From the NCBI GenBank assembly GCA_024762395.1, contig JANTHP010000013.1:1-32202 (forward strand): a stretch of 32,202 bases of DNA, read 5' to 3'. Under the pieces are notes generated by a model. The model worked only from the letters and a program-made list of their open reading frames with translations, searched no databases and was not told where the DNA came from. The position numbers were made by a program, and so were the translations under genes. Source of the DNA: Anaerolineae bacterium. Its GTDB lineage: Bacteria > Chloroflexota > Anaerolineae > Promineifilales > Promineifilaceae. Positions within the stretch are counted from its first letter, which is position 1; every line of letters starts with the position of its first letter. Below, one piece after another: positions 1-32,202 of the stretch.

Positions 1-383
1 ACTTCGCTGAGATTGGAGATTTGAGATTGGAGATTCGCGGTTAATTTCTGATCTTCAATCTCTAATCCCTCCTCAAATGCCGCCACATCCAGCCAGTAAT
101 CGCTCTCATGGTTGAAGGCGATGGTTTGCCGGGTGACGATGAGGTAAGGCTTGAGTTTGCGCCGCAAGCCGGAGAGGAGGGAGCGCAGGTTGGCTAAAGC
201 CTGCTCCTGCGGGCGGTCGTCCCACAGTAAATCGGCCAGAACTTCACGGGGAAACGGCCGTTGCTGCATAACCAGATACGCCAACAAAGCCTCCGCCTTG
301 CGCGTCCCCAGCCCCGTCACCGGCTTGTCCCCGCGCGTTATGGTCACGCCCCCCAATAAAGAAATTTTTAACTGCTCCGCCAT
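1..383 (-). CDS. SARP/BTAD-type transcriptional regulator, N-terminal part (partial)
   Basis: The minus strand is open from an ATG at 383-381 to the left edge of the window (about 127 codons, no stop), so the C-terminal part is missing. The protein begins MAEQLKISLLGGVTITRGDK and continues with features of the OmpR-like winged helix of SARP/BTAD regulators: TRKAEALLAYLV, then FPREVLADLLWDD, then ANLRSLLSGLRRKL. These regulators bind DNA through this domain, and the following BTAD domain is expected past the edge. Residues from about 104 on (EIEDQKLTANLQSQISNL) are written by a 7-bp repeat array rather than by family-conserved sequence, which is odd. The gene is divergent from the membrane protein at 664. 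The family call is fairly safe; the target genes are unknown. Confidence 0.8.
   Translation of the reverse strand, partial: MAEQLKISLLGGVTITRGDKPVTGLGTRKAEALLAYLVMQQRPFPREVLADLLWDDRPQEQALANLRSLLSGLRRKLKPYLIVTRQTIAFNHESDYWLDVAAFEEGLEIEDQKLTANLQSQISNLSE
11..72. repeat. Heptanucleotide array with inverted partner (GATTGGA family)
   Basis: Positions 11-38 read as four consecutive 7-bp units (GATTGGA, GATTTGA, GATTGGA, GATTCGC). Positions 52-72 carry the complementary word in three units (TCTTCAA, TCTCTAA, TCCCTCC). The two halves can pair as an imperfect hairpin. The array lies inside the SARP-type gene and keeps its frame open. The same word family recurs inside moeA at 22314-22382. Confidence 0.8.
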
Positions 384-1283: not shown

Positions 1284-1318
1284 TTCATAATTCATCCTTC
1301 ATAATTCATAATTTTCAT
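1284..1318 (+). repeat. Heptanucleotide array (TTCATAA family)
   Basis: Four 7-bp units (TTCATAA, TTCATCC, TTCATAA, TTCATAA) run from 1284 to 1311, with a degenerate fifth to 1318. They fill the gap between the membrane protein and the giant gene. The ribosome binding site AGGAGA of the next gene follows directly. Confidence 0.8.
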
Positions 1319-1328
1319 AGGAGACACA

Positions 1329-4300
1329 ATGAGACACAATAGCAAATTTTACCGATTGACATCAACCCTTGTTGCAATAACAATGTTATTGCAATTATTT
1401 GTACCAATAACGATTGTGCCAGCGGCGATTATGCCGCCGGCAACGGCCGTACAAGCCGCCCCGCCAGCCAATCCACAATCCGCCACGCCCAATTCGCCGC
1501 TCATAATGAACAACGCCCCTATCTCCCTGGCGCGTACCCAATCCGGCGCGTCATCCGACGAAACCATTGTTGTCTCCTACATCGTCACCAATAACCAGCC
1601 GCCAACTTTGGATACCGCCATACCGGAGGGGACAACCATCACCGATACAGTTGCCATCCTGTCTGTGTTAGACCCGGCTGAGGACATGAACACCTTGCAT
1701 GACAGCGAACTGGTCATGACATTGACCAACGGGACACTGGTTGACGCCAACGGCGCCAGCCAAAACGGCAATACATTAACCTGGACGCTGGGCGATATTT
1801 TACCGATGGAAAGCAAACTGATTACCATGACGGTAGCTGCGCCCGCCGCCGCCCCCGATTTTGTCGAATTAGATGACGGGGCGCAGGCAACGGCCGTTCT
1901 CTGGAACAATCCCATCGCCACAACCGCCCGCCCCGCCCTTGTCATCCCCGATGCCGTTGACCCGACCTTCGTCGCCGCAACCGTAGACGCCGACAGCGCC
2001 GACGAAGACATGCTCTGGGCCGCATCCGCCTTCACCCAAGACCCCCTCGCCGCCTTTGCCATGGTGCAAAATTTCGCCTTTGACCCGTACAAAGGCTCAC
2101 TGCGCGGCACACGCGGCACACTGTGGGGCGAAGCCGGCAACAGCCTGGACCAATCCAGCGCCCTCATCGCCATGCTCCGCGCCGCCGGCGTGCCTGCCCG
2201 CTACCGGCACGGCACGCTGGACATTGCCGACGCCCAAACCCTGCTCGCCAGCATGTTTGACGCCCCTCAAGGCGTCGCGGGCTACCTGCCTGCCGACGCC
2301 GTTCTCGCCGACCCGCTTAACGACCCCGCCCTCATCGCCCTGGCCCAAGACCATTGGTGGGTAGAGGCGTACCTGCCCGGCATCGGCTGGACTGATTTAG
2401 ACCCGACATTTCCGGGAACGGCCGTTGGCGACATCATCGCCACCCCCGGAACCAACGACCAAATCGCCGAAATACCCGACACCCTGCGTCACAAAGTCCA
2501 CATGGAACTGGAAATCGAACAGTACAACAGTTTCCCCATCGGCGGAACCAACCTCTCCACCTCCATTCCCCTCACCGCCACCTTCGCCGCCGCCCAGGTT
2601 GCCAGCAAAGCCGTCATCCTCGGCCACCTGCTCGAAACCGACGACCCCGGCGGATTAGTCTTCACCAGCGTCGAACACACCTACACCCCCTACTTCGGCA
2701 TCAACGGCGACCAATACGTCGAATTGGGCCAGCCATTTAGCGACTTGATGACCTCCTTCCCGCTGGCTTCCCACTTCACCACCGCCGCCTGGATACATTT
2801 TGAACTCACCGACGCCGACGGCGACAGCCAAACCTTCACCCGCGAAGTCAAAGATACGATTGGCATCGCCACCCGCTTATTGGGCGGCGTACTCGACATC
2901 ACTTCCCCGGCCGATAACGCCCCCTTCATCAGTTCGGAAGATGCGTTCGTGGCCGATTTTCTGCCCAATTTAGTGCGTAACACCGATTACGCCGCCCGCC
3001 ACGAAGCTGAATTGCAATATGATGTGCTGGAACTGGCGCAAGAAACAGAAGCCCTGCCCAAAGATGATTTAACCACGCCGGAAGCAGAAGAGCAGGCCGG
3101 CGAAGCACGCTACCGCGGCGAAATTGCCCGCGCCCTGCTGTACAGCCTGTCCGGGCTTGACTTTGCCTTCCGCGCCGACAGCCTCACCGACACGCTGGCT
3201 GAAAATCTGCGCGTGAATCTGTTTTATGACAAGTCGCGCGTCATCGTCATGCACGGAGCCAGCGTGGAAGACAGCGCAGTGCGTACCGTTGACCTACGCA
3301 ACACAGACGCCCGGGCGATTGCCGCCCCCGGACAGGCGGAAACGGCCGTTCGCACAGCCCAATGGGTCAAAGCGGTGGCCGAATCCTACTTTGAAGGGGA
3401 TGCGCTGCGCGATGCCAGCGGCCTCGAACCCATCACCACCGCCCGTATTTTTGAAGAAGCGCAGGCGCAGGGCATTGACTTTGTCTACGTCACGCCCGAT
3501 CAGCTTGATTTGCTCGATTTGTACCTGCCCGACCCCGACGCCTACGGCCACGCCGCCGCCGCGTTGATTGCCGGGCAGGAGGTATTGATTCCCACTGAGC
3601 CGGTGTTGATTGACGGTGAGTACCGTCTGGGCTGGTGGGCAATTGATCCGGAAACGGGCACGGCCGTTTCCGTCCTCGACAATGGGCTGCATGGCGCGTT
3701 AATGGAATACGCCACCATGATCAAGAAAATCGTCGGCAAGCTGAAAAAAACCTGGAAAAATTTCGGCAAATCTGTAGACCAACTCTGGAACGACTGCCTT
3801 GTGGATAATGTTGTGCCTGCATTGCAAGGAGGCCCCGCCGGATCGGGCGGAGCCTGTTTGGATAACTGGAAACCGCCCAGCGGTGGGCCGCTGCGTGCGC
3901 CGCTGGCTCCCTCCACCCCCTGGTACTACCTGCCCGACCATTTATGCCCCACCGATAACTGCGGCCTGGAACAATTCTTGCTAGATGGGTACGACCATGC
4001 CAACATGCCGCTGCCGGAAACCATCTTCCAGTATGCGGACGATCAATTACCGGCCCAAGCGTATATCGGGCAGCTTATTTCTGTAACGGATAACGGCGGC
4101 GGGGGCGATCCGGACTTCACTTTAACCCCATCCGGCGCCGGAACCATCACCCCGCTGCAAACATACGGCCTGGACATTGCCGCTTCAGCCAATTTTGACG
4201 GCGATTTAGAAGTATGGACGTATGCCCCGGATGGGTGGAGCGTCGGTTTTGTGGATGATACCCAAACACAAGTGCAAATCGTCGCCCCGGAAAACACCCC

Positions 4301-7300
4301 CGCCGGCAGCTATACCATCCTCGTAACCGGCCAATCCAGCGATAATCGCACGCTCATCGCCACCGCCGAGCATATCGTTACCGTCCCGACACAAGAATCA
4401 ATCGTACTGGCTTATGAAACAGAGCCAAACATCACCGTCAATTTAGGCGCGCCGGCCTACGATGCCGTCTCCAACCAAACCAACGACGGCGAGGCGGAGA
4501 TTCCCGATTCAGCCTTTAAGCTGCGGGTGGCCAATTTCAGCGCCATCACCAAAACCATCACCCTGTCCGTGAGCGGCGCGCCCGCGGGATGGGTTGTGCT
4601 GGACGGCGCGGAACAAACAACGACCAGCGTCACACTCGCTCCATTCAGCCGCACCCGTGCTGGGCTTTATGTCAAGCCGGATACGTTTCCCGCGCCCGGA
4701 ACCAGCTTCACGATGGACGTGGTCGCCGACGACGGCGGCAGTTTGTCCGACAGCGTGTCTATTTCCTGGACAATGCCGGGGCAGGCGCACAACTTCTTGC
4801 AAATTGAACCGCAAACAATGTACGTCGCCGTAGACGGCAATGTCGAATTCGATCTATCCATGACCAATGTCGGCAATGCGTCCGGTTCGTTCCCCATCAC
4901 CGCCACTGTACCCATTTCCACCTGGAATGTGAGCGGTTTGCCCGCCGACATGACATTGGCGGTGGATGAATCGAGCAGCGCGACAGGAACGCTAAACATC
5001 GTCGGCGGCACATTGGGACGCGAATATCCGTTGGTGTTTGCCAGCTCCGCGCCCGGCAGCTACACCCAGTACGAATTGGCAACGGCCGTCGTCGTCTCCC
5101 CCCTCACCGGCCCTATCTTCGGCGCATCCGAAAGCTGCACGGTGGGCAGCGACGCGCTTTCAGCCGCCTTTGAATCGCTCGCCTTTGCCGTCAGCGATTT
5201 GGAAAATAGCTGCAACGCCGGAAGCTGCAACCTGGATTTACGCGACACGGCCGTAACCGCCGCCAACAACGCCGCCAACTACGCCCGCCTCGCCTCCCCC
5301 TTCGTCAGCGAATACGCCAATCTGGAAACCATCGCCGCCGATTTGGCCGGACACACGGACGATGCCGACATCATGGCCGATTTGACAGCAATGAGTACGG
5401 CCGTTACCGTCCTCAGCGCCGAACTGTGCGTCATCGAAGAACACGCCCCGTCGGCCAAATTCACCCCCTACGTGGACGCCATCCTGCTGGGCGACAGCGT
5501 CGGCTTCAGCCTGGACGTGACCAACGAAGGCACAATCGCCACCACCTACGCCATCACCGTAACCGGCTTGCCCGGCGGCAGCCAGTTCTTCAACGAAACC
5601 ATCGCCCCCGGCGCAACGCTGAATCTACCCGTCAACGACACGCCCGCCGCCATGGGCGCGTTCGATGTTGAGGCCGCTGTGACCTATGCCGATTTGACGG
5701 ATACGGCCGTTGCCCGGCTCAACGTCGTAGACAAATTCGTCCAAATCACCCAGGTACGCGCCACTCCCGATTTTGTCGAAACCGGCGTCAGTTCCACCGA
5801 CTTGAGCGTCGAAATCGCCAACATCTCCGGCGTGGCGCAGGATGGGAATGCACGCACGGCCGTTCTCGCCCCCGATGGCAGTACCGAATGGACGCAGGAC
5901 ATCCCCCTCACCGCGCTGGCGGGCAACCCCCGCTGGTACGATCTGGCGACGGTAGACACCTCCGGATGGGCCGAAGGAACCTACACCGTCACCGTAAACT
6001 TTCTCGATGGAACCGGCGCGCTCATCCCCGACGGCAGCGGCTATGGCTACTTCAACGTCGGGCAAGGGCTGGTTGCCAGTCAAGCTGTCACGCCCGCTAT
6101 CGTCGCTCCCGGCGACATCACCGTCACAACGATCATCACAACCGAATTGACGCAGGTTTCATTGCCGCCCGATCCGTTAGGGCCAGTGAACAGTGATCAG
6201 TTATCAGTGAACAGTGAGCCGGTTTATCCGGCGGCGTTTTTAGCGACGCTGCCCGCCGTTGACAGCGACAGCCTGTTAAACGGCCTGCCATTAGCGGAGT
6301 TGTACGCGGAATGGGAACAACAATTCACAATTCACAATTCACAATTCACAACTCACAATTCCCATCCGTTAACCCCTGTCTACGCGCCGCCCATCACAGA
6401 AACAACGGAAACGGCCGTCGCCGAACCCGCTTCACAAGTCACAATTCACAATCCACAACTCACAATTAATTCCGTCTTCACCCGCACCGAACAGGATGAT
6501 ACGGCCGTCGTCTACGCCGGAACCTGGAGCAATGTCAATGTCAACAAAGCCAGCGGCGGCAGCTACCTCCGCGCCGACACAGCCGGCGAAACGGCCGAAC
6601 TCAGTTTCACCGGCAGTTGGCTCAACATCGGCTTCATCGGCAGCAGCTTCGGCGGCTACGCCGAAATCTTCATTGACGGCGTCAGCCAGGGCACAGTTGA
6701 CTTGTACCGCCGGGATGAAACGGCCGTCAGCTATCTCTACGACGGCCTGACCAACGCCCCCCACACCGTCACCGTTGCCGCTTTGGACACAAGCAACCCC
6801 AATTCCAGCAACGATTACGTCCAGCTAGACTACTTCGACGCCTGGGATGGCAGCGCCCTGCCCGACGGAACCTTCGAGCAAAACGACGCCCGCGTCATCC
6901 GCAGCGGCGGCTGGTTCACCCACACCGACGCCATCGCCAGCGGCGGCAGCTACATCCGCAGCAGCAGCGGAACCGCCTGGTTCCCCTTCAGCGGCGACAG
7001 CTTCAACTACCAGGCCATCAACCGCAGCGGCGGCGTTCAACACACCCGCCTTTACGTAGACGGCCAATTTCTCACCGACCTCAGCACCTTCAACTACGAT
7101 ACCATCACCAACACCTATTCCTTCAACGGCTTCGGCAGCGGTCCCCACATCCTGCAAATCAACGCCTACCGGAACGATACCAACTTCGACGCCGTAACGA
7201 CGCCCGGAACCGCCCCCTTCACCGACCCCAACCCGGTCGGCAGCTACACCCGCTACGAAGAAGACAACCCCGCCTGGCTTTACAACGGCGTCCCGTTCAC

Positions 7301-10300
7301 CCAGACAGCGACAAGCTGGGTGCGTTACAACTTCTCCGCCGCCGCCTTGTCCAGCGACGGGCAGGCTGTTCGCAGCAGCACGGCCGGGGATACGGCCGTT
7401 ATCACCGTCAACGGCCAATGGATCGCGCTCGGCTTCGCGGGCGACAGCAGCAGCGGCAGCGCCGACATCTACCTGGACGGCGTCTACCAGCGTACCGTCA
7501 ACCTCTACCGCAACAGCGACAGCGTAACCAGCGAATTCTTCCCCGCCCTCAGCGCCGGGAACCATACCATCAGCGTCACCGTTGTCGGCGACGGCCGTGT
7601 CTGGATTGATTACGCCGATGTGTGGGACGGTACAACGCTGCCCGACGGGACTTTTGAAGATTTCCCCGGCCGTTTCTACTTAAACACCCCCTGGAGCCGC
7701 ATCACCGACGCCGACGCCGTGAACGGCAGCTACCTGCGCGCCAACAGCGGAACCGTCTGGTTCCCCTTCACCGGCGACAGCGTCAGCTACCGCGCCTTCG
7801 CCTACAGCGGGGCGGATGACGGCCGTCTCTACCTCGACGACCAGTTCATCGGTACCTTAGACCTTTTCAACAGTACAGACATCAGCCGCACCTTCTCCCT
7901 AGCTCCAGCCGGTTTAGGCGCCGGCGTCCACCTGCTGCGCCTGGAACAGCATCACGGCAACGTCACCCTGGAAGATTTCGCCACGCCCGGCAGCGCCCCC
8001 TTCTACAATCCCCCCGCGCCCACCGGCGTCATTCGCTACGAAGAAGATGATCCGGCGCTGCGCTACAACGGCGTCCCCCTCACCCAAACCGTCAGCAGTT
8101 GGGGCGGCAGCTATGCCGAACTGTACGCCAGCGACGGCTACTACGCCCGCTCCAGTAATCCTGGCGACAACGTAAGCCTGACCTTCGACGGAACCTGGGT
8201 CGGCATCGGCTTTCTCACCTGGCGCACGCGCGGCATCGCCGATGTGTACCTGGACGGCGTTCTGATTGACAACGTAGACCTTTTCACCCACAGCGAAGAC
8301 AGTAAAAGCGTCTACTACGACGGGTTGACGGCCGGTACGCACACCATCAGCGTCACCGTCAGCGGCAGCAGCCACCCCAACGCCACCGACACCAGAATCG
8401 CCGTTGATTACTTCGACGTGTGGGACGGTACAGCGGAAGCGGATGGCGTTTTTGAAGAAACCGACCGCAGCCGCATCTTCTACAGCCTCGGCTGGACATA
8501 CAACAGCGAAGCGGCGGCCAGCGGCGGCGGCTACGCCGACACCAGTCTCAGCAGCGACAACACCGCCTGGTTCCCTTTCACCGGCGATTCCGTCAGCTTC
8601 CAGGCCTGGGCGCGGCGGGATACGCACGAAATGGAAATCAAGATAGACGGGGTCAGTTACGGCCGTTTCGACATCTTCGCCGACGTACCCGTAACCCGCA
8701 CCTTCTCCTTCGACGGCTTGGGCGCAGGGCCGCACATCATGGAAATCAACAGCTACCGGGCCGATCTCACCCTGGACAACTTCGCCACGCCCGGCACAGC
8801 CCCCTTCTACACGCCGCCCCCCGCCCCCACCGGCATCATCCGCTACGAAGAAGACAATCCGGCGCTGCTCTACAATGGCTACCCCTTTGAGCAAACCGAA
8901 TACTGCTTCCTGAATTGTTGGTTTATGTCCTGGTGGCGCAGCTCCAGCGACGCTTATGTAGCTGAATCGCGCCAACCGGGCGACTGGGTAGAATTGGAAT
9001 TCTTCGGCAGTTGGGCCGGCGTCGGCTTTGGCGTCGGCGGTTCCGGCGGCATCGCCGAGGTGTTCATTGATGGCGTATCGCAAGGCACGGTAGACCTTTC
9101 CGTCGGCCAAGACGTGAAAAGCGTCTACTACGGCGATTTGATCACCGGCACGCACACCATCTCGGTCACATCATTGTCAGGCAATCTCTACCTCGACTTC
9201 TTCGATGTGTGGGATGGCACGCCAATGGACGACGGCTGGTTTGACGCCAACCTGAACGAACACGACGGCCCCTACTACTACACCGCCCTCGATTCCTGGT
9301 ACACGCAAGAACCGGCCACCTTCCACGAACGAATCGCCTTCGCCCGCGAGAAGGATGTGGTCAGCCGGGCGACGATTAGCTACAACACCCACATGTGGTT
9401 TGCCTTCACGGGTAATGACCTGGAATTTTTGCCTGTGCAAAAGGCAGGCGATACGGTGGAACTGTTTATTGACGGCGTGAGTCAAGGCGTGATTGACCTG
9501 ACGGCCGAATACTCCGAACAACCCTTCGCCTACTACTACACCAACCTGGGGAACGGCCCCCACGTTGTCCGCGTCAACGCCGTAGACGGCCCCTACATTG
9601 ACGCCTTCCAGGTCAATCCGCCCGACCTCTTGCCCTACACGCCGCAGGTGGAATGGATGAGTCCCGCCCCCACCGACATCTACACCGACACCTACCCCTC
9701 CGGCGGCGTCGTTTCCTCTGCCGCTATCGGCGATTTGGAAGGCGATGGGCTGGTGGAGATCGTCCTCCCCGCCGCTAACGGGCAACTGTACGTCTACCGC
9801 GGCGACGGGCAGGACACGGGGGATGGCGATCCCATTCTCTGGCAAAGCGATTTGGTGGGCGCCGGCGCCGAGCCGACGCTGGTAGACCTGGACGGCGACG
9901 GCAGCGCCGAAATCATCGTCATGGGCACAGAAGGCACGGCCGCTTTCCACGCCGATGGTTCCGTTTACTGGTTCACCGACGCCATCAAATCAGAAGTTGA
10001 AAATGTGGGCTGGGCCGGTTCTTCCGTGGGCAACCTCGACCTGGAGCCGGGGCCGGAAATTGTTCTGGCGGCGATAAATGACGCCATGTACGTGCTGGAC
10101 CATGACGGTACGGTGTTGTTCAGCGAACCAACGGGCGATCTGCCAGCTATACCAACGCTGGCCGACGTAACCGGCGACGGCATCCTGGACATCATCTTTG
10201 CCCAAGACCACACCATCACCGCGTTTGACGCTTTCAACGGCTTCAACATCATCTGGTCGTACACCCACACGTATCCAGGCTTTTATGGGCAGGCATTTGG

Positions 10301-12893
10301 TTCGCCCGCCGTTGTGGATGTGGATGGCAAGCAGCCCGGCGGCGACGATGGCCCCGAAATTGTCATCAACTGGGGGCATTATGTGGATGTGTTGGACGCC
10401 GACGGCACGTTCTTGTGGAATTATTACCTGGGCGACGACAACTATCGCCGCCCCAGCCCCGTCACCGTAGCCGATGTGGATGGCGATAATGAGATTGAAA
10501 TCTTGACCGCCTCCGCTTTCCAATCCGGTTTCCTGGTCCTTCATCACCTGCTGGCAGCGCTCAACGCTGACGGCTCGCTGTTGTGGAGCCAGGAGATGGG
10601 CGACACGACCGCCTCGGCCTCCGGCGTGGCAACGCAGGATTTGGACGGCGATGGCGTGTGGGAGGTGCTTTGGAACGGGTTCGTGGAAGGGTTCACCATT
10701 ATGGACGGCCCGACGGGTGAGAAGGTATTCAACGAAACGTTCACCGAATCGGGGACGGTTGTGGATTATCCGACACTGGGTGATGTGGACGGCGACGGGT
10801 ATGCCGAGGTTGTTGCCAGTGGGATGAACGGGATGTTTGTGATTGGGTATGACGCGGTGTGGGGGGATTCACGGCCGTTATGGAACCAACACAACTATCA
10901 CGTCACCAACATCAACGACGATTGGAGCGTCCCCATCAACGAACCGAATGCGTGGGAAATCCACAACACCTACCGCACCCAAACGCCGGATCGTAACCCG
11001 ACGCCCGTTTACCAGGTGTCTATCACGTACACGGCAGGCATCAACAACGTGACGGTGTTGACGGATACGGCTTCCATGCCGTTGACGGCGACGCCGCCAA
11101 CTTACACCTGGTCGTACAGTCAAGAATGGTACAACCCGGTGATCACAACCACTTTCGACTCGCTGCTGACCGACATGCAGCCGGGCGAGGTGCGGATGGT
11201 GTCGCAAGGGACGCAAATCGGGTATGAACTGCCCAGCGGCATTAACTACCTGACGCTGCCGCCGATGTATGTGGCTGCGCCACGCATCGTCACGATGAGT
11301 CCGGCGGAAGCGACGGCGGCGGCGGGCAGCACGGCCGTTTTCGACATCGCCCTCTTCAATCCCAGCCCAACCAGCGGGGATGTGTACGCGCTGGCTGTCA
11401 GCGGCATCCCCGACGGCTGGGCCAGTTACCCGGCGTCGGTCAATCTGGCGGCGGGCGAGACGGCTACCGTCACGTTGAGCGTCGCCATCCCGGCGGGCGC
11501 GGCGGCGGATACGCTGCCGCTGATTGTGGATGTGACGAACGCCGCCAGCGGAACTGACCAGACGATGGCTTCGCTGACGATTATTGCCGGGGTAGAGGCT
11601 GCGATTACGCCGGAAACGCAAACGGCCGTTCCCAACCAGCCCGTCACCTACACCCTTACCATCACCAACTACGAGAGCATTGGGCAAACCTTCACGCTGA
11701 CGGCGACCGGCCTGGCCGATGTGACCCTGCCGCCCACCGTCGTCGTAGGGCCGGGCGGCGTGGTGACGATTGAAATCGTCGTCTCGTCGGGCAATCCGGG
11801 GCCGCAGCCGTTCACGATTATTGTTGTGGGCGACAATGGCGCCGAAACCAGCGTGGATGCTGTGTTGGATTTGTCTGATGCAGCGGACGTGGCTTTGACG
11901 TTAGAGCCTGATCCAATTGTGGCGGGGCCGGGCAGTACGGCCGTTCTCACCGCCACAGTAACTAATCTGGGCAGTCTGGCGGACAGTTTTAACTTGAGCG
12001 TGACGGCTCCGGCGGGCTGGACGGCTGAATTGCAGCAAAATGGCGCGGCCGTTTCTCAGGTCAACCTACCGCCCAACCTGTTCAATTCCAATGAGCTGCT
12101 GCTGCTGGTTACGCCGGATGCGGGCGCGGCAATGGGGGATTACGAGGTGGAGGTAACGGCCGTTTCGCAAACGGATCCCGCCGTTACGGCCGTTGTCACC
12201 GGAACCGTGCAGATTGGCGGTCATGGCGTGCAGGTGTCCATCATCTCCGGGCCGACGACGCTGGATCCGCGCGACGTTGGCGTGTGGGATGTGCGCATTA
12301 CCAACACCGGCAGCGCGGCCGACACGTTCGACTTACAGGCGGCCGGCTTAATCGCTGCCGCCGGGCAGTTCTCGGCCGATTCCGTCTCGCTTAATCCCGG
12401 CCAATCGCAAACGGTGCAGTTAACGGCCGATAATCTGGACTTTGTTTTGCCGCAGACCTATCCCGTCATCGCCGCCGCCGCATCGCAGGGCAACCCGCAA
12501 ATCCAGCATCAGGATATGACCGATGTGACGTTCATCGAATACGAAGCGGTGGAAGTGGCCTGGCAGCCGCCCACCCAGACGATAACGGACTCGTTGACGG
12601 CGCAGTTCACATTGGTTTTCACTAACACGGGCAACATCCCGACGGAGTATCAACTGGATGTGTCTGCGCCCGGCGGCGCGGTGAACACGTTAGGGCTTAA
12701 CAGTCTGCTCCTGCCGGTGCACAGCTCAGGCCGGGTTTTGGTGGGGGTGACGGTTCCCAGCGATGGCACGTACACGATTGAAGCGGTGGTTAGTTCGACA
12801 AGCAGCGGGGTTAGTGGCAGTGATACGGCCGTACTGATTGTTGAAGAAGCGTTCCCGAATAAAGTGTATATACCCATCATGATAAAAAATTAG
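1329..12893 (+). CDS. Giant exported multi-domain protein (TGase-like, jelly-roll-like repeats, FG-GAP propeller, Ig-like)
   Basis: The 3854-residue protein starts at ATG 1329, preceded by AGGAGA. Domains in order: Sec signal peptide (about 1-44, hydrophobic LVAITMLLQLFVPITIV); DUF11/Ig-like segment (about 60-190); transglutaminase-like domain (about 230-365) with H342 and D358 in DHWWVEAY and WTDLDPT but Ser272 where the catalytic Cys is expected; long beta-rich and partly unassigned region with Ig-like pieces (about 520-1700); four tandem jelly-roll-like units of about 260 residues (about 1718-2761); FG-GAP/VCBS propeller with Asp-rich calcium-binding turns such as DLDGDGSAE (about 2790-3180); Ig/NEW3-like domains (about 3318-3830); C-terminal VYIPIMIKN. 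Likely a surface or secreted adhesin or carbohydrate-binding protein. Heptanucleotide repeats interrupt it near residues 1620-1715. Exact function unknown. Confidence 0.85.
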   Translation: MRHNSKFYRLTSTLVAITMLLQLFVPITIVPAAIMPPATAVQAAPPANPQSATPNSPLIMNNAPISLARTQSGASSDETIVVSYIVTNNQPPTLDTAIPEGTTITDTVAILSVLDPAEDMNTLHDSELVMTLTNGTLVDANGASQNGNTLTWTLGDILPMESKLITMTVAAPAAAPDFVELDDGAQATAVLWNNPIATTARPALVIPDAVDPTFVAATVDADSADEDMLWAASAFTQDPLAAFAMVQNFAFDPYKGSLRGTRGTLWGEAGNSLDQSSALIAMLRAAGVPARYRHGTLDIADAQTLLASMFDAPQGVAGYLPADAVLADPLNDPALIALAQDHWWVEAYLPGIGWTDLDPTFPGTAVGDIIATPGTNDQIAEIPDTLRHKVHMELEIEQYNSFPIGGTNLSTSIPLTATFAAAQVASKAVILGHLLETDDPGGLVFTSVEHTYTPYFGINGDQYVELGQPFSDLMTSFPLASHFTTAAWIHFELTDADGDSQTFTREVKDTIGIATRLLGGVLDITSPADNAPFISSEDAFVADFLPNLVRNTDYAARHEAELQYDVLELAQETEALPKDDLTTPEAEEQAGEARYRGEIARALLYSLSGLDFAFRADSLTDTLAENLRVNLFYDKSRVIVMHGASVEDSAVRTVDLRNTDARAIAAPGQAETAVRTAQWVKAVAESYFEGDALRDASGLEPITTARIFEEAQAQGIDFVYVTPDQLDLLDLYLPDPDAYGHAAAALIAGQEVLIPTEPVLIDGEYRLGWWAIDPETGTAVSVLDNGLHGALMEYATMIKKIVGKLKKTWKNFGKSVDQLWNDCLVDNVVPALQGGPAGSGGACLDNWKPPSGGPLRAPLAPSTPWYYLPDHLCPTDNCGLEQFLLDGYDHANMPLPETIFQYADDQLPAQAYIGQLISVTDNGGGGDPDFTLTPSGAGTITPLQTYGLDIAASANFDGDLEVWTYAPDGWSVGFVDDTQTQVQIVAPENTPAGSYTILVTGQSSDNRTLIATAEHIVTVPTQESIVLAYETEPNITVNLGAPAYDAVSNQTNDGEAEIPDSAFKLRVANFSAITKTITLSVSGAPAGWVVLDGAEQTTTSVTLAPFSRTRAGLYVKPDTFPAPGTSFTMDVVADDGGSLSDSVSISWTMPGQAHNFLQIEPQTMYVAVDGNVEFDLSMTNVGNASGSFPITATVPISTWNVSGLPADMTLAVDESSSATGTLNIVGGTLGREYPLVFASSAPGSYTQYELATAVVVSPLTGPIFGASESCTVGSDALSAAFESLAFAVSDLENSCNAGSCNLDLRDTAVTAANNAANYARLASPFVSEYANLETIAADLAGHTDDADIMADLTAMSTAVTVLSAELCVIEEHAPSAKFTPYVDAILLGDSVGFSLDVTNEGTIATTYAITVTGLPGGSQFFNETIAPGATLNLPVNDTPAAMGAFDVEAAVTYADLTDTAVARLNVVDKFVQITQVRATPDFVETGVSSTDLSVEIANISGVAQDGNARTAVLAPDGSTEWTQDIPLTALAGNPRWYDLATVDTSGWAEGTYTVTVNFLDGTGALIPDGSGYGYFNVGQGLVASQAVTPAIVAPGDITVTTIITTELTQVSLPPDPLGPVNSDQLSVNSEPVYPAAFLATLPAVDSDSLLNGLPLAELYAEWEQQFTIHNSQFTTHNSHPLTPVYAPPITETTETAVAEPASQVTIHNPQLTINSVFTRTEQDDTAVVYAGTWSNVNVNKASGGSYLRADTAGETAELSFTGSWLNIGFIGSSFGGYAEIFIDGVSQGTVDLYRRDETAVSYLYDGLTNAPHTVTVAALDTSNPNSSNDYVQLDYFDAWDGSALPDGTFEQNDARVIRSGGWFTHTDAIASGGSYIRSSSGTAWFPFSGDSFNYQAINRSGGVQHTRLYVDGQFLTDLSTFNYDTITNTYSFNGFGSGPHILQINAYRNDTNFDAVTTPGTAPFTDPNPVGSYTRYEEDNPAWLYNGVPFTQTATSWVRYNFSAAALSSDGQAVRSSTAGDTAVITVNGQWIALGFAGDSSSGSADIYLDGVYQRTVNLYRNSDSVTSEFFPALSAGNHTISVTVVGDGRVWIDYADVWDGTTLPDGTFEDFPGRFYLNTPWSRITDADAVNGSYLRANSGTVWFPFTGDSVSYRAFAYSGADDGRLYLDDQFIGTLDLFNSTDISRTFSLAPAGLGAGVHLLRLEQHHGNVTLEDFATPGSAPFYNPPAPTGVIRYEEDDPALRYNGVPLTQTVSSWGGSYAELYASDGYYARSSNPGDNVSLTFDGTWVGIGFLTWRTRGIADVYLDGVLIDNVDLFTHSEDSKSVYYDGLTAGTHTISVTVSGSSHPNATDTRIAVDYFDVWDGTAEADGVFEETDRSRIFYSLGWTYNSEAAASGGGYADTSLSSDNTAWFPFTGDSVSFQAWARRDTHEMEIKIDGVSYGRFDIFADVPVTRTFSFDGLGAGPHIMEINSYRADLTLDNFATPGTAPFYTPPPAPTGIIRYEEDNPALLYNGYPFEQTEYCFLNCWFMSWWRSSSDAYVAESRQPGDWVELEFFGSWAGVGFGVGGSGGIAEVFIDGVSQGTVDLSVGQDVKSVYYGDLITGTHTISVTSLSGNLYLDFFDVWDGTPMDDGWFDANLNEHDGPYYYTALDSWYTQEPATFHERIAFAREKDVVSRATISYNTHMWFAFTGNDLEFLPVQKAGDTVELFIDGVSQGVIDLTAEYSEQPFAYYYTNLGNGPHVVRVNAVDGPYIDAFQVNPPDLLPYTPQVEWMSPAPTDIYTDTYPSGGVVSSAAIGDLEGDGLVEIVLPAANGQLYVYRGDGQDTGDGDPILWQSDLVGAGAEPTLVDLDGDGSAEIIVMGTEGTAAFHADGSVYWFTDAIKSEVENVGWAGSSVGNLDLEPGPEIVLAAINDAMYVLDHDGTVLFSEPTGDLPAIPTLADVTGDGILDIIFAQDHTITAFDAFNGFNIIWSYTHTYPGFYGQAFGSPAVVDVDGKQPGGDDGPEIVINWGHYVDVLDADGTFLWNYYLGDDNYRRPSPVTVADVDGDNEIEILTASAFQSGFLVLHHLLAALNADGSLLWSQEMGDTTASASGVATQDLDGDGVWEVLWNGFVEGFTIMDGPTGEKVFNETFTESGTVVDYPTLGDVDGDGYAEVVASGMNGMFVIGYDAVWGDSRPLWNQHNYHVTNINDDWSVPINEPNAWEIHNTYRTQTPDRNPTPVYQVSITYTAGINNVTVLTDTASMPLTATPPTYTWSYSQEWYNPVITTTFDSLLTDMQPGEVRMVSQGTQIGYELPSGINYLTLPPMYVAAPRIVTMSPAEATAAAGSTAVFDIALFNPSPTSGDVYALAVSGIPDGWASYPASVNLAAGETATVTLSVAIPAGAAADTLPLIVDVTNAASGTDQTMASLTIIAGVEAAITPETQTAVPNQPVTYTLTITNYESIGQTFTLTATGLADVTLPPTVVVGPGGVVTIEIVVSSGNPGPQPFTIIVVGDNGAETSVDAVLDLSDAADVALTLEPDPIVAGPGSTAVLTATVTNLGSLADSFNLSVTAPAGWTAELQQNGAAVSQVNLPPNLFNSNELLLLVTPDAGAAMGDYEVEVTAVSQTDPAVTAVVTGTVQIGGHGVQVSIISGPTTLDPRDVGVWDVRITNTGSAADTFDLQAAGLIAAAGQFSADSVSLNPGQSQTVQLTADNLDFVLPQTYPVIAAAASQGNPQIQHQDMTDVTFIEYEAVEVAWQPPTQTITDSLTAQFTLVFTNTGNIPTEYQLDVSAPGGAVNTLGLNSLLLPVHSSGRVLVGVTVPSDGTYTIEAVVSSTSSGVSGSDTAVLIVEEAFPNKVYIPIMIKN
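6184..6218 (+). repeat. Heptanucleotide array inside the giant gene (CAGTGAA family)
   Basis: Five 7-bp units (CAGTGAA, CAGTGAT, CAGTTAT, CAGTGAA, CAGTGAG) are translated in frame as SDQLSVNSEP-like residues. The composition is unlike the flanking GC-rich code, which suggests an insertion tolerated in a linker. Confidence 0.8.
6322..6363 (+). repeat. Heptanucleotide array inside the giant gene (AATTCAC family), copy 1
   Basis: Six 7-bp units (AATTCAC four times, then AACTCAC and AATTCCC) total 42 bp. Because three units are 21 bp, the translation repeats every seven residues (QFTIHNS, QFTTHNS). The reading frame stays open. Confidence 0.85.
6436..6466 (+). repeat. Heptanucleotide array inside the giant gene (AATTCAC family), copy 2
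   Basis: Four degenerate units (AAGTCAC, AATTCAC, AATCCAC, AACTCAC) followed by AATT give a second in-frame insertion, translated as VTIHNPQLTIN. It lies 72 bp after the end of copy 1 and directly before the first jelly-roll-like unit. Confidence 0.8.
6481..9610 (+). repeat. Four tandem protein-coding units of about 260 codons
   Basis: Units begin near 6481, 7234, 8020 and 8830. Each opens with RYEEDxPALxYNG or a variant, contains a first half with GSWxxIGF, then xxVFIDGVSQGTVDL and GTHTISVTV, then DVWDG, and a second half with WFPFTGDSVSY and GxGPHxLxI, ending in TPGTAPF. The paired halves look like two beta-sandwich (carbohydrate-binding-module-like) domains per unit. The units are diverged, so the duplication is old. 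Confidence 0.75.
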
Positions 12894-17490: not shown

Positions 17491-20400
17491 TTAGTCGGCG
17501 GTAGCTGGTGCGCTAACGTTGTTATAAGATGTGCCGTATATTTCATGCGTTTCTAAAATAGCGCCATAATCCGAACCGGCACGGGCAGAGTCCACCTGGG
17601 CATAAATGGGGGTACCGGCCGACAACGACCCGGAAAAGAGGCTGTTTTCCGGTGAAAAGTATAGATTGGGCGCGCCGGGGACTGTGCTGTAAGTTAAGGT
17701 CAACTGTTCTCCGGCGGCCAGCGGCACGGTAATGCCCCAGGCGATGCCTTCGCTGGATAATTCAGGCCATTCCTGGTTGGCTGCGGTGGGGACGGGGTTG
17801 GGATCAATGTAAAAGTCTACCCAGAATCCGCTGTCTGTGCTGGCGCTGCCTTGATTTTGGATGACGACTTCGACGGCGTCGCTGGACGCGGTAACGCTGT
17901 TGACGACCAAATCGGGGGCGGGGGTGTAGTTGTTTAGCATGACCGGCAAGAATATGGCGTAGCTTCCTGGGTTGACGGTTACGTTGACTGTGGCGGTGTC
18001 GCTGCCGCCGGCGCCGTCGGCAATGGTATATGTGAAGGCGTCGCTGCCGGAAAAGCCGGCGTCGGGGGTGTAGGTGAGTGTGCCGTCGCCATTGTTGACC
18101 ACAGCGCCGTTGGCCCCTTGGGTGATATTGGAGACGGTCAGGATGTCGGCGGTGTCCGGGTCGTCGTCGTTATCGAGTACGGGGATGGTAACGGCCGTTC
18201 CTTCCAACGTCGTCGTTGTATCATCATTGGCAGTCGGGTTGTCATTCACGCCGGTAACAGCAATACTGACAACGGCCGTATCCGTGAGCAGCCCATCTGT
18301 CATTGTGTAAGTGAACGTGTCTGTGACTATTGCCCCAACGCTTAACGCTTGCAGGGCAGTAACGGCCGTTGGGTCATACGAATAACCGCCATCAGCCGCC
18401 ACATTCACAACCGCGCCATACGCGCTGGCCGCATCACTGCCAGAGACCGTAACCGTATCGCCCGCATCCTCATCCGAATCATTGCTCAACACCCCGGCGG
18501 CGGGTACTGTCAAAACAGTATCCTCATCCGTTGCGCCAATATCGTCAATGGCGATGGGGGCATCATTCACATTGGTTACGGTGATGGTAAACGGTTTTTG
18601 GTACGTCAGACCGCCATTGTCGCTGGTTTCGATGCGGATGTGGTAGATATTTTGGGTTTCAAAGTTAAACATCTCGCCCGTCAACAGTTGGTCACCGCTG
18701 ATAGTGAAGGAACCATTATCGTTGTCGCCTGTTCCGGCCACCAGCGCGTAGGTGTGACTATCGCCCACGTCCGGGTCAGTCGTGGTGAAATTGCCGACGA
18801 AGGCCCCGGCGGGCTGATTTTCGGCGACGCTGCTGTTGTCTAGTATGATGTTGGTGGGAGCGTCATTATCGGCCGTTATCAAAATGGTGAATTGTTTCTC
18901 GAATGTACCGCCATTACCGTCATCCGTTTGGACGCGAATGCTGTAGCTGTTCTGGGTCTCATAATCGAAGATTTCGGCCGTTTCCAGTTGGTCGCCGTTG
19001 ATGGTGAAGGAACTATTATTATCATCGCCTGTTCCGGCCACGAGCGCGTAGGTGTGACTGTCGCCAGCATCCTGATCGGAAGTGGTGAACGTGCCGACCA
19101 ATGTGCCAATGGGCATATTTTCGGGGACGCTGTTGCTATCAATGGAAATGTTGGTGGGCGCGTCGTTGGCGTCAGTAACGGTGATGGTGAAGGGTTTTTC
19201 AAATGTGCCGCCGCTGCCGTCATCGGCTTGAACGCGGATGCTGTAGCTGTTTTGACCTTCAAAATCGAAGACAACGTTTGTTTGCAGCTCGCCGCCGCTA
19301 ATGGTAAAGGAAGCGTTGTCGGCGTCACCGGTTCCTTGAACCAGGGTGAAGGTGTGGCTGTCACCGATATTGGGGTCAGTGGCAGTGAAATTGCCAACGG
19401 CCGTTCCCGCCGGCATATTTTCGGCAATGATGTCGTTATCCAGGGCAATGTCGGTTGGCGGGTCGTTGCCATCAAGAACGGAGATGGTGAACACCTCTGC
19501 ATAGACGCCGCCATTGCCATCACTTACCTGGACGCGAATGCTGTAGCTGTTTTGCGTTTCAAAATCAAACTCTTCGGCTGTCAGCAGTTGATTATCTTCA
19601 ATATCAAAGGAACCGTTGCCCGTATCGCCCGTGCCTGGAACCAGCAAATAAGTGTGGATGTCCCCAGAGTCCTGGTCGCTGGCGCTGAAATTGCCAACCA
19701 ACGTTTCTTGCGGCTGATGCTCAAGAACAGTGCTATTGTCCAGGGCGATGTCGGTTGGCGCATCATTGATGTCGTTTACGGTGATGGTAAACACTTCTTC
19801 GTATGTGCCGCCGTTACCATCATCTGTTTGGACGCGGATGCTGTAACTGGATTGGGTTTCGTAGTCGAGAGAAACGGCCGTTACCAACTGATCGCCATTC
19901 GTACCAAAAGAACCATTACCCGAATCGCCAGCGCCAGCAACCAGCGTATACGTGTGCGTGTCGCCCACATCCGGGTCGGTTGTGCTAAAATTGCCAACGA
20001 CTGTGCCAATTGGTTGATTCTCATTCACATCGTTGTTATCCAGTGCAATATCTGTAGGCGGCTCATTGGCATTTGTAACATTGATCGTAATCGCCGCCGT
20101 ATCCGTCATAAACGAACTATCCGTCACTTCAACCGTCAAACTGTAGCTGGGCGTTGTTTCATAATCCAACTGCGAGCCGTCGGCAACAGTTATTTCACCG
20201 CTCAGTGCGTCAAGCGCAAAAATACCGGCTTCATTGCCTGCGGTAAAAACATAATTTAATTTATCGCCTGCATCGGGGTCTGTGGCGACAATTGTGCCTA
20301 CCACTGTGCCATTAGGGCTGTTTTCACTCACACTGAAGGTTTGATCATCTACCGTGGGCGGCTGATCAGCCTCAATTATCAAGGTGTATTCGCCAAAACA

Positions 20401-20994
20401 AAGCGGGTCGCCAGCGCCGCTGTCGCCCATTGTCAGCGTCCATATACCCAAAGGGTCTTCGCCATTGTAAGCCGAAAGCGGCTGTATCGGGCGAAATGTG
20501 CCGCTGGCCGGAGCCGGGCCGCCAACAACTGTCGCCGCCGTATCGTCAAAGAGTACCGTCGCGCTGCCTCCATAAACCTCACTGCTGGTGTATGTGTAGC
20601 CGGTCCCGCTGCCGCTGTTGTTGCCACTGTCTTCAATTAAAGCCACTTGCGTACCGGCAGGGCTGGTGAGAAAGGCGTAAATTTCCCGGTTAAACGGCCA
20701 ACCGCCGTCATGCGTGGGGCAGGTTCCGCTTATTTTTTCAAATGAGACGGAGAGATTGACATCGCTGATCACTGAGCCTGTCGCAAAATCGCTCGTGGTA
20801 AATGTCACATCGCGCGTGAGTGCGCTGTTATCGGCAGAACCGGCCGTGTTATTGGTTTTGGATACGATGGATAAAGTGGACGCCTGACTGCTTGCGGCCA
20901 GAATGCTCAAAGTAAAAATGGCAAACATAGCAGCTATCATGCGCTTTGTTAAAACGTTGTTTATGATTGAGTTGCCCAAATTTGATGTATTCAT
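17491..20994 (-). CDS. Exported P-domain and cadherin-repeat surface protein
   Basis: The 1167-residue protein has a signal peptide (hydrophobic MIAAMFAIFTLSILAASSQA, residues 19-38; the long start or Met19 at 20940 are both possible, no good Shine-Dalgarno at either). A proprotein-convertase P-domain follows (about 40-210), then six cadherin-like repeats (about 212-815) with calcium-binding motifs such as DPDVGD, DDGNGG and NDAPTDI, then two Ig/VCBS-like domains opening NDAPIAIDD and NDNPTANDD (about 812-1010), the hydrophobic motif YAIFLPVMLNN (about 1012-1022) and a CARDB-like domain to the end. It probably mediates calcium-dependent adhesion or cell-surface contact. No protease domain accompanies the P-domain. 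A 16-residue ATAD/APA tail closes the protein. Confidence 0.85.
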   Translation of the reverse strand: MNTSNLGNSIINNVLTKRMIAAMFAIFTLSILAASSQASTLSIVSKTNNTAGSADNSALTRDVTFTTSDFATGSVISDVNLSVSFEKISGTCPTHDGGWPFNREIYAFLTSPAGTQVALIEDSGNNSGSGTGYTYTSSEVYGGSATVLFDDTAATVVGGPAPASGTFRPIQPLSAYNGEDPLGIWTLTMGDSGAGDPLCFGEYTLIIEADQPPTVDDQTFSVSENSPNGTVVGTIVATDPDAGDKLNYVFTAGNEAGIFALDALSGEITVADGSQLDYETTPSYSLTVEVTDSSFMTDTAAITINVTNANEPPTDIALDNNDVNENQPIGTVVGNFSTTDPDVGDTHTYTLVAGAGDSGNGSFGTNGDQLVTAVSLDYETQSSYSIRVQTDDGNGGTYEEVFTITVNDINDAPTDIALDNSTVLEHQPQETLVGNFSASDQDSGDIHTYLLVPGTGDTGNGSFDIEDNQLLTAEEFDFETQNSYSIRVQVSDGNGGVYAEVFTISVLDGNDPPTDIALDNDIIAENMPAGTAVGNFTATDPNIGDSHTFTLVQGTGDADNASFTISGGELQTNVVFDFEGQNSYSIRVQADDGSGGTFEKPFTITVTDANDAPTNISIDSNSVPENMPIGTLVGTFTTSDQDAGDSHTYALVAGTGDDNNSSFTINGDQLETAEIFDYETQNSYSIRVQTDDGNGGTFEKQFTILITADNDAPTNIILDNSSVAENQPAGAFVGNFTTTDPDVGDSHTYALVAGTGDNDNGSFTISGDQLLTGEMFNFETQNIYHIRIETSDNGGLTYQKPFTITVTNVNDAPIAIDDIGATDEDTVLTVPAAGVLSNDSDEDAGDTVTVSGSDAASAYGAVVNVAADGGYSYDPTAVTALQALSVGAIVTDTFTYTMTDGLLTDTAVVSIAVTGVNDNPTANDDTTTTLEGTAVTIPVLDNDDDPDTADILTVSNITQGANGAVVNNGDGTLTYTPDAGFSGSDAFTYTIADGAGGSDTATVNVTVNPGSYAIFLPVMLNNYTPAPDLVVNSVTASSDAVEVVIQNQGSASTDSGFWVDFYIDPNPVPTAANQEWPELSSEGIAWGITVPLAAGEQLTLTYSTVPGAPNLYFSPENSLFSGSLSAGTPIYAQVDSARAGSDYGAILETHEIYGTSYNNVSAPATAD
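18561..20060 (-). repeat. Five tandem cadherin units with exact 300-bp period
   Basis: The conserved junction (GCxTCATT-type block encoding NDAPTDI or NANEPPTDI) falls at about 20060, 19760, 19460, 19160, 18860 and 18560, so five units are each exactly 300 bp (100 residues). They are diverged in sequence but show no net insertion or deletion at the junctions. Confidence 0.8.
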
Positions 20995-21258: not shown

Positions 21259-23289
21259 TCAAGTAGTGAGGAATGTGACCTGGCCCATTGGGTGTACATC
21301 ATAACCAGGGAGGGCGGAAACGGCCGTCTTGAACCCATCATCATGCAGTAAATCGAGCAACGGCCGTAACAATTCACTCTCAAAATAGGCTTTAGGGATC
21401 ACAAGCTGGTACTGCTCATGCGCCAGAGGCACAAAATCCAGCGCCAACGCGCGCGCGGCGGCTCGAATACCCACTCCGGCGTCAGCCACACCCGAAGCCA
21501 CCGCCGCCGCCACTGCCAGATGCGTGTACTCCTCCCGTTCGTACCCCCGCACCTGCTCCGGCGCGATGCCGCGTTGAGATAGCTCATAATCAAACAAAAC
21601 CCGCGTCCCCGCGCCCCGCTGCCGGTTGACAATCTGCACATCCGGATTAGCTGCATCCGCCCAATCTGCCAAATTCTTTGGGTTGCCCGGCGACACAATC
21701 CAACCTTGTTCCCGTCCCACCAGCGTAACCAGCGCAATTTCCTGATTAGGTAAATAACGGCGGATATAACTTTCATTGTAGACGCCGGTTTCCGGGTCAA
21801 GCAAATGCGACCCGCCCAGATGCGCTTCGCCGCGCCGCAAAGCTACCAACCCGCCCAGACTGCCCACATTGGCCGATGCCAGCCGCCACGCGCCCTCTTT
21901 TTCGGCCAAAAATTGCGCCAACAAATCTAAAGTCAGGTCGTGGCTGCCGATGACGACAATGGTTTTTTCAATTTCGCGGGGAGTGCGGTACAGGTGAACG
22001 GTAACGGGGCTGCCCGCGTCGGCGCCTTCGCTGAAGCGGGGAATGCGGACAATGCCGTCGGCGCGCACCAGCGAGGTAATGACGCCCGCGCCTCGGCTAA
22101 GGGGCGTCGCCATCACATTGCCGCCGACTTTGCCGACGGCGACGCGCACAAAATCGTCATCGCCGGTGGGGGAGGCGAGTTTACGGGTGAGGGTCGCTTC
22201 CAGCGTGGGCGGCTCGTAAGCCGGTTGGCCTTGCCAGCGGGCCAGCAGCGGCTCGACGAAAATTTCGCCGGTCAGGGCGGCGCTAACGGGATAGCCGGGT
22301 ACGCCAATAATAGGAACTGGAGACTGGAGATTGGAGACTGGAGATTGCTCATCAGTCTCCAATCTCGAATCTCCAATCTCTATCATGCCCATGATGACGG
22401 GGTGACCGGGGCGGACGGCGACGCCGTGAACGATAAGCTGTCCTAACGCTTTGACGACGTGGGCGGTGTAATCTTCGCTGCCGGCGGAGGAACCGGCGTT
22501 GATGAGGATGAGGTCATGATTTTGGGCGGCCTGGGAAACGGCCGTCTTTATCGCCTCAAAATCATCCGGTACAATGGGCCAGCGGGTAGGAATACCGCCC
22601 CAGTTTTCAATTTGCGCGGCTAAAACGATGCTGTTGTATTCGATGATTTGACCGGGAGAGATGCCATTGGTAACGCCCCCTTCGACAGGCTCAGGGCAGG
22701 CCGTTTCCGCTGCGACCAACTCCGAACCGGTGGGGATAATGGCGACGCGCGGCCGGCGGTAAACGGGGATGACTGCATGACCGGAACCGGCCAACGCACC
22801 CAAATCCACCGGGCGCAGCTTGTGATTGGCGGGTAAAACCAGTTCCGTCGCCACCATATCCTCGCCCATAGGCCGCACGTGATGCCAGGGCGGCACAGAG
22901 GCGCGAATCTCAATGGCGGGCGCGCCTTCTACCTCAACCAACTGTGTATGTTCGATCATGATGACAGCATTGGCCCAGGGCGGCAGGGCATGGCCGGTGT
23001 TGATGGCGCGCGCCGTTCCTTCAACCAGCGGCAGTCGCAGCGGATTGGTTTCGGTGGCTCCATGCGTATCCTGGGCGCGCACGGCATAGCCGTCCATTGC
23101 GCCGGCATGGTAATGGGGGGAGGATATGTTGGCAAAAATGGCCTCGGCAGTGACACGGCCGTTCGCTGCCGTCACCGGAACCATCTCCATCTCCAACGGC
23201 TGCCAAAGGTTGTGGGATTGGAGAACGGCCGTTAGCGCTGCCTGCGCCTCATCAAGGGGAATATCTTCCAAATAAATGTGTCGTTTCAT
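21259..23289 (-). CDS. moeA: MoeA molybdopterin molybdotransferase fused to a PBP-like domain
   Basis: From the ATG at 23289 the protein has 676 residues. A start 15 codons further up exists, but those codons come from the hairpin and poly-A stretch, whereas MKRHIYLEDIPLDEAQA is a normal start and GCAGGG precedes it. MoeA inserts molybdate into adenylylated molybdopterin. Visible motifs are HAGAMDGYAV (about residue 60), IPTGSEL, the MPT-binding NAGSSAGSEDYT and GVPGYPVSA. After MoeA domain IV (to about 430) comes a periplasmic-binding-protein-like domain (about 445-676, IVVIGSHDLTLDLLAQFL to HPMGQVTFL) that in other bacteria is fused to MoeA or ModE-like proteins and may sense molybdate or another oxyanion. 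Two repeat insertions lie in frame, at about 22314-22382 and 22676-22700. Confidence 0.9.
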   Translation of the reverse strand: MKRHIYLEDIPLDEAQAALTAVLQSHNLWQPLEMEMVPVTAANGRVTAEAIFANISSPHYHAGAMDGYAVRAQDTHGATETNPLRLPLVEGTARAINTGHALPPWANAVIMIEHTQLVEVEGAPAIEIRASVPPWHHVRPMGEDMVATELVLPANHKLRPVDLGALAGSGHAVIPVYRRPRVAIIPTGSELVAAETACPEPVEGGVTNGISPGQIIEYNSIVLAAQIENWGGIPTRWPIVPDDFEAIKTAVSQAAQNHDLILINAGSSAGSEDYTAHVVKALGQLIVHGVAVRPGHPVIMGMIEIGDSRLETDEQSPVSNLQSPVPIIGVPGYPVSAALTGEIFVEPLLARWQGQPAYEPPTLEATLTRKLASPTGDDDFVRVAVGKVGGNVMATPLSRGAGVITSLVRADGIVRIPRFSEGADAGSPVTVHLYRTPREIEKTIVVIGSHDLTLDLLAQFLAEKEGAWRLASANVGSLGGLVALRRGEAHLGGSHLLDPETGVYNESYIRRYLPNQEIALVTLVGREQGWIVSPGNPKNLADWADAANPDVQIVNRQRGAGTRVLFDYELSQRGIAPEQVRGYEREEYTHLAVAAAVASGVADAGVGIRAAARALALDFVPLAHEQYQLVIPKAYFESELLRPLLDLLHDDGFKTAVSALPGYDVHPMGQVTFLTT
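22314..22382. repeat. Heptanucleotide array plus reverse complement inside moeA
   Basis: Five units (GAACTGG, AGACTGG, AGATTGG, AGACTGG, AGATTGC) run from 22314 to 22348, and four complementary units (GTCTCCA, ATCTCGA, ATCTCCA, ATCTCTA) from 22355 to 22382. The two arms can pair around a 6-base loop. The minus-strand translation is IEIGDSRLETDEQSPVSNLQ, inserted just before the conserved GVPGYPVSA. It is the same family as 11-72. Confidence 0.9.
22676..22700. repeat. REP-like element encoding PEPVEG inside moeA
   Basis: The plus strand carries TTCGACAGGCTCAGGG within 22676-22700; its complement reads CCCTGAGCCTGTCGAA. I recognise this as a repeat found dispersed in many bacterial genomes, often leaving PEPVEG, ALSLSKG or FDRLRAG in translated frames; all three appear in the frames here. 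In moeA it inserts CPEPVEG between ETA and GVTNG. Confidence 0.75.
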
Positions 23290-23300
23290 AAAAACCCTGC

Positions 23301-23350
23301 AAAAAGAAAAAAGGACTGAGGACTGAGTGGGCAACTCAGTCCTCAGTCCT
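23301..23350 (-). terminator. Terminator of tRNA-Lys built from a heptanucleotide hairpin
   Basis: A perfect 17-bp stem (23312-23328 with 23334-23350) surrounds a 5-base loop and is followed on the minus strand by a T-rich run (complement of 23301-23312). The arms are units AGGACTG, AGGACTG and CAGTCCT, CAGTCCT, with two more degenerate units to 23364. It sits between the tRNA and moeA. Confidence 0.8.
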
Positions 23351-28385: not shown

Positions 28386-28490
28386 GTTACACAGAGCTTC
28401 ACAGAGAATCACGGAAATTCACAGAGAAAAAAGAGAAAAACGCCCTTTTCTCAGTGTGACTCTGTGCAACCTCTGTGTAACTCTGTGTTC
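28386..28490. repeat. CACAGAG-word array with inverted partner
   Basis: The left side carries ACACAGAGC, TTCACAGAGAA, TCACGGAAA, TTCACAGAG units with a period near 11. The right side (28457-28490) carries CTCTGTGCAAC, CTCTGTGTAA, CTCTGTGTT. GTTACACAGAG (28386-28396) and CTCTGTGTAAC (28471-28481) are exact reverse complements. It lies between dodecin and the GNAT gene; the rest of 28491-28586 shows nothing. Confidence 0.75.
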
Positions 28491-32093: not shown

Positions 32094-32106
32094 AATGCCA
32101 ACTCCT

Positions 32107-32202
<96 letters not shown>

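Follow-up and report, generated by a model that had tools for sequence, protein, structure and literature searches.

According to earlier reports reviewed by MacGregor (2015, PMC4679880), heptanucleotide repeats were, in most of the genomes surveyed, the commonest of the longer repeats. In the Beggiatoaceae themselves, TAACTGA repeats occur upstream of start codons and some are translated as heptamers (LSVISYQ) at the peripheries of proteins (PMC4679880). Xanthomonas and Nostoc have G-rich heptamer repeats of variable copy number throughout their genomes (PMC4692102), and Chloroflexus aurantiacus has (GATAGRA)n heptamer satellites, a single unit family for which the available portion of the report describes no read-through into protein (PMC6749651). 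The Rickettsia palindromic elements are in-frame insertions found at one locus in orthologous proteins, sometimes with a different element group at that locus (PMC3767692).

The window analysed here, 32,202 nucleotides from an Anaerolineae bacterium, is one whole contig (C13) of a 4.9-Mb assembly (G000) in 500 contigs. Its genome resembles those of cyanobacteria (heptanucleotide LSSR/STRR) and Beggiatoaceae in having hundreds of 7-nt arrays, mostly intergenic and in some cases translated at protein peripheries, and as in STRR/LSSR these tandem repeats exceed chance genome-wide and lie mostly outside genes; a related unit is shared with the Beggiatoaceae, since CAGTTA here complements TAACTG. 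It differs from both in its many unit classes, its octamers, its polarised hairpins and the presence of arrays in the same enzyme loops across genera. Contigs of named Chloroflexota MAGs have arrays and the palindrome ACGGCCGT in common with this genome, and in the case of G001 also a contig end identical over 138 bp, in keeping with its placement in that phylum. The C. aurantiacus satellites are likewise heptamers in Chloroflexota, and those of Xanthomonas and Nostoc are likewise genome-wide, but the units of the latter form G-quadruplexes (GGGAATC) and are under-represented in coding regions, unlike the arrays described here. The original prediction had likened the arrays to Rickettsia palindromic elements. 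The likeness holds for their effect, DNA being inserted in frame into orthologous proteins at a shared locus (palindromic DNA in Rickettsia and in the MoeA gene here), and fails for their identity: those elements are a palindromic sequence family of 100-150 bp, whereas these are tandem arrays of many heptamer or octamer units that vary from species to species, and the arrays of the giant protein are not palindromic. The arrays act like Rickettsia palindromic elements, but belong as a variant to the bacterial heptamer repeats.

Arrays in the linker of a giant open reading frame

Three arrays lie within the linker of a giant ORF (Table 1) without closing its frame and, as had been predicted, jelly-roll-like units follow, residues 1748-1817 matching CE2_N (E 5.6e-22). 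The ORF also contains Transglut_core, FG-GAP and NEW3 domains, and its product is probably exported, to judge from a hydrophobic N-terminus. In an AlphaFold model with 25 aligned homologues, the linker (pLDDT ~30-44) is predicted to be disordered, and the beta-rich domain after it has pLDDT mostly of 80-95. The linker arrays encode PVNSDQLSVNSE, QQFTIHNSQFTTHNS and ASQVTIHNPQLTI, the peptide of array 2 being QFTIHNSQFTTHNS and that of array 3 QVTIHNPQLTI. None of 500 codon shuffles reached the best period-7 score of the linker, and a scan of the linker for periods 5, 6, 8, 9 and 10 found none. Array-encoded peptides, including QFTIHNSQFTTHNSHPLTPVY and the MoeA loop described below, would be part of the translated products, as they are read from open, conserved frames.

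Table 1. Repeat arrays of the window and the genes that contain them.
Feature	Position	Strand	Description
Array 1	6184-6217	+	Tandem Repeats Finder: unit CAGTGAA, 4.9 copies
Array 2	6320-6361	+	Tandem Repeats Finder: unit ACAATTC, 6.0 copies, 94% matches; purest of the three
Array 3	6431-6467	+	Tandem Repeats Finder: unit TTCACAA, 5.3 copies
Giant ORF	1329-12893	+	3854 aa, uninterrupted frame
Array-bearing linker	6147-6476	+	110 aa, between beta-rich domain and CE2_N-type jelly-roll units
MoeA-like gene	21259-23334	-	MoeA_N, MoCF_biosynth, MoeA_C, PBP_like
Inverted heptamer arrays in MoeA gene	22316-22347 and 22353-22380 (22316-22380)	-	
GAGATTG heptamer array	9-35	-	Inside partial ORF 3-383, paralogue of L045:2499-5525
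Intergenic TTCATAA array	1284-1313		5' of giant ORF
TCATTCA array	32106-32202		Pure, 13.9 copies; contig end

Since 3 x 7 = 21, such arrays give peptides with a seven-residue period, and this part of the prediction is arithmetically right; that they do so in whatever frame they enter is true of ACAATTC only when it is read on the coding strand, where every phase is stop-free. There is a TGA in the complement, GAATTGT, and likewise in the array 1 unit CAGTGAA, for which a variant copy is needed. Among the five copies of array 1, TGA can fall in frame in the third only, and array 1 is open because this sole critical copy departs from the unit: it is CAGTTAT, and 6201-6203 read TTA in place of an in-frame TGA. 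Translation would end in an array of perfect CAGTGAA copies; read-through depends on frame and strand. The MoeA array of a relative (G025) likewise has a variant at the in-frame phase (GAATGACGA replaced by GAATTACGA).

The giant-ORF region was sought in 79 relatives and is present in 24; the 24 homologous linkers extracted, that of the window included, are 42-141 aa long and align poorly, and their flanking domains align well. Period-7 arrays of varied units number 15 in the 6.6 kb of linker sequence, all in nine of the 24 linkers, and the 16.5 kb of conserved flanking sequence has none. The alignment of homologues had been proposed as a means of refutation, should the residues prove to be conserved parts of a domain; the flanking domains are conserved and the array residues are not, and because one linker site has different units in different lineages, the array peptides are not conserved domain residues. 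A related genus (G033) has counterparts of arrays 1 and 3, of the same unit class at the same place, and no counterpart of array 2, which is missing between 'EQ' and 'PLTPVY'; from this single comparison, array 2 probably arose later than the other two.

Arrays in the loops of conserved enzymes

The clearest case of heptamer arrays in the open frame of a conserved enzyme is the MoeA-like gene of the window. Here the inverted pair encodes the greater part of IEIGDSRLETDEQSPVSNLQSPV, an insertion of 19 aa that the solved MoeA structure 1UZ5 lacks, and this loop is the main hypervariable stretch in an alignment with 11 homologues (61-85% identity). Of the 25 family genomes, 15 have period-7 or period-8 arrays of varied units at this loop, as against none of five outgroups, and five of the arrays form strong hairpins (z -4.9 to -10.5 against codon shuffles). 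Between G000 and its congener G002, 26 of 29 stem pairs are retained, six of them by two-sided change: GAG recurrently became GGG in the 5' arm and CTCC became CCCC in the 3' arm. At approximately 22610-22720 (- strand), the gene of the window has a second in-frame insertion of about 8 aa (ACPEPVEGG), not found in the aligned homologues.

Arrays also occur in loops of MutS (6/19 family genomes versus 0/11 outgroups) and HypF (11/18 versus 0/2); when HypF is compared with the solved structure 3VTH, three of five arrays fall at gaps in the sequence of the structure. In MutS and diaminopimelate decarboxylase the array substitutes for a loop without lengthening it. Other hosts include a 2-oxoacid dehydrogenase acyltransferase, an HPr-enzyme I fusion, PabB-PabC and UvrD. 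AlphaFold models show the stretches that bear arrays as loops of low confidence. Gene calls were made by a simple codon-usage script, so that gene starts are approximate; counting only arrays more than 25 codons from gene ends, 31 internal arrays were found in 18 genes of the genome sample described below, scaling to ~72 genes per genome. The sense strand is stop-free in 29 of the 31, a figure that is partly built in, since an in-frame stop would prevent the calling of one ORF. At the left end of the window, positions 1-386 are 88% identical to L045:2496-2881, part of a paralogous BTAD/NB-ARC/TPR regulator gene, with an AATCTCC array at the same place. The prediction that protein sequence here is written by the repeat mechanism is supported by the different units found in the same linker and likewise in the MoeA, MutS and HypF loops.

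Genome-wide distribution and hairpin architecture

A 1.22-Mb sample of the window's own genome contains 64 exact period-7 runs of at least 14 and 47 period-8 runs, versus none of either in a first-order Markov control. Of 114 stronger arrays (score at least 16), 47 lie outside genes, 32 inside and 35 straddle gene boundaries, in a sample that is 82% coding. The arrays are mostly 25-100 bp in size with many different units, the ten commonest unit classes accounting for 59% of them; classes recur across loci and across phyla, and intergenic DNA carries the same units as genic arrays. In species-level comparison of the giant-ORF linker, MoeA and HypF, units and lengths differ between species. In samples of 20 kb, arrays abound within the tool-defined family, whereas other families of the order or class have almost none. 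A pure TCATTCA array both ends the window and starts contig C45 (L079:1-97), and arrays probably break the assembly.

Most neighbouring period-7 arrays are inverted relative to each other (36 of 41 pairs). The MoeA array is palindromic; those of the giant protein are single-arm, neither inverted nor palindromic. MITE-like sequences with TIR-like ends (CTCTTTGGGAATTCRCGGGGTT) around heptamer hairpins of differing units were seen at L042:3789-3911, L068:17115-17249 and L067:15494-15592, and octamers (TAGTCNNN / GACTANNN and others) make up long hairpins at L031:6122-6284, L046:16551-16704 and L077:8898-9040. A common hairpin-loop sequence marking one element was rejected, as the listed spacers differ. 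A RAYT/Y1 transposase was rejected as the array writer, its distribution not matching that of the arrays: array-poor outgroups have Y1, and a search for Y1_Tnp in G024, which has both MoeA and HypF arrays, found none. A plasmid origin for the region was also rejected, no match being found.

Other repeats were also noted. The palindrome ACGGCCGT has 1981 copies in 1.22 Mb, versus ~25 expected from base composition; it is mostly genic, most commonly in the frame that reads Thr-Ala-Val (e.g., at ~6410-6520 in the giant ORF), occurs often in several relatives but not at all in others, and resembles HIP1 of cyanobacteria. Positions 28390-28488 contain an inverted pair of period-10 arrays (CACAGAGATT / CTCTGTGTAA), and 18685-19251 two 300-bp direct repeats within ORF 17491-20994 (- strand).

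Origin and significance of the arrays

The explanation favoured here (probability roughly 0.72) is that a genome-wide repeat process makes and homogenises the arrays, which in genes are kept at tolerant, stop-free sites, translated, and later rewritten. In this bacterial family, the process would create, amplify and homogenise 7-nt (and 8-nt) tandem arrays, in many cases with two complementary arms that make a hairpin, and these would form or land everywhere. Within genes, they would persist only where the sense strand lacks an in-frame stop and added or exchanged residues can be accommodated by the protein, i.e., in disordered linkers, of which the giant-protein linker would be one, and in surface loops; there they would be translated as approximate heptapeptide repeats, and turnover of the units would later rewrite the peptide. 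We infer that the writer may be replication slippage within arrays together with template switching between hairpin arms, and that purifying selection may decide where arrays stay. Units common to many loci and phyla are not predicted by pure local slippage of random sequence, so that inter-locus copying or unit preference is needed. Further points count against the favoured explanation: some intergenic arrays sit inside multi-copy elements with conserved, TIR-like termini, and the polarity of the hairpins does not follow from it; nor does the coexistence of periods 7 and 8.

An unlikely alternative is the whole insertion of mobile palindromic elements (MITE- or RPE-like), of which genic arrays would be remnants and the heptamer stem only the interior. 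The hairpin architecture, the insertions at the same sites in orthologues and the proximity of TIR-like ends to arrays (25 of 41 TIR_A hits within 60 bp and 6 of 8 for TIR_B) all favour such insertion. However, the MoeA arrays adjoin conserved MoeA coding sequence without TIR-like ends, of 241 array clusters just 43 have a flank that recurs at another one and most flanks are unique, identical termini surround different heptamer units, and the G000 and G002 MoeA arms diverge by concerted substitutions with almost no gaps.

The purine-richer arm lies 5' in 34 of the 36 inverted pairs. It is rather improbable that a dedicated process (an enzyme or a template) imposes this polarity, writing and rewriting heptamer and octamer hairpins and so continually yielding lineage-specific peptide loops at fixed enzyme positions. 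The constant polarity is also a point for the very improbable view that selection keeps the arrays as regulatory or RNA-structural signals (binding sites, terminators or mRNA hairpins) and that their translation is incidental, as are the location of the Beggiatoaceae heptamers 5' of start codons (PMC4679880) and the slightly greater density of arrays in convergent regions (1.01 per kb, versus 0.56 in divergent regions), but the arrays have no one common location, close species have different units, and the giant-protein arrays have a single arm. A terminator role was set aside, the convergent bias being mild.

That these are ordinary low-complexity linkers, selected for flexibility and repeated at the codon level without a special DNA process, is scarcely credible: the giant-protein linker is predicted to be disordered and varies in length, and the LPDAAES peptide repeat in L094 is of the codon-level kind, but a period of 7 nt, which is no multiple of 3, largely refutes this view, and codon shuffles never reproduced the period, the units are identical to those of intergenic DNA, and loops of cytosolic enzymes have arrays too. 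An artefact of fragmented metagenome assembly or binning is extremely improbable, even though the assembly is in many contigs and that of the window ends in an array, as genic arrays lie within intact frames and recur site for site in many independent genomes, one in 3 contigs (G025) among them.

Heptamer repeats and their translation at protein peripheries were already known; the striking variant here is that, in one genus after another, they occupy corresponding loops of conserved enzymes, with many units and polarised hairpins. If a genome-wide repeat process writes the arrays as favoured above, loops and linkers of several proteins, conserved enzymes included, seem to be given their sequence by a DNA repeat process and not by protein selection. 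MoeA, MutS and HypF offer clean comparative cases in which such a process appears to set protein sequence at structurally mapped sites, with built-in controls in genera with different units, array-free outgroups and intergenic arrays of the same units. Two old questions thereby become testable: the source of the 7-nt period in the heptamer repeats of bacteria, and the tolerance of conserved proteins for foreign peptide segments.
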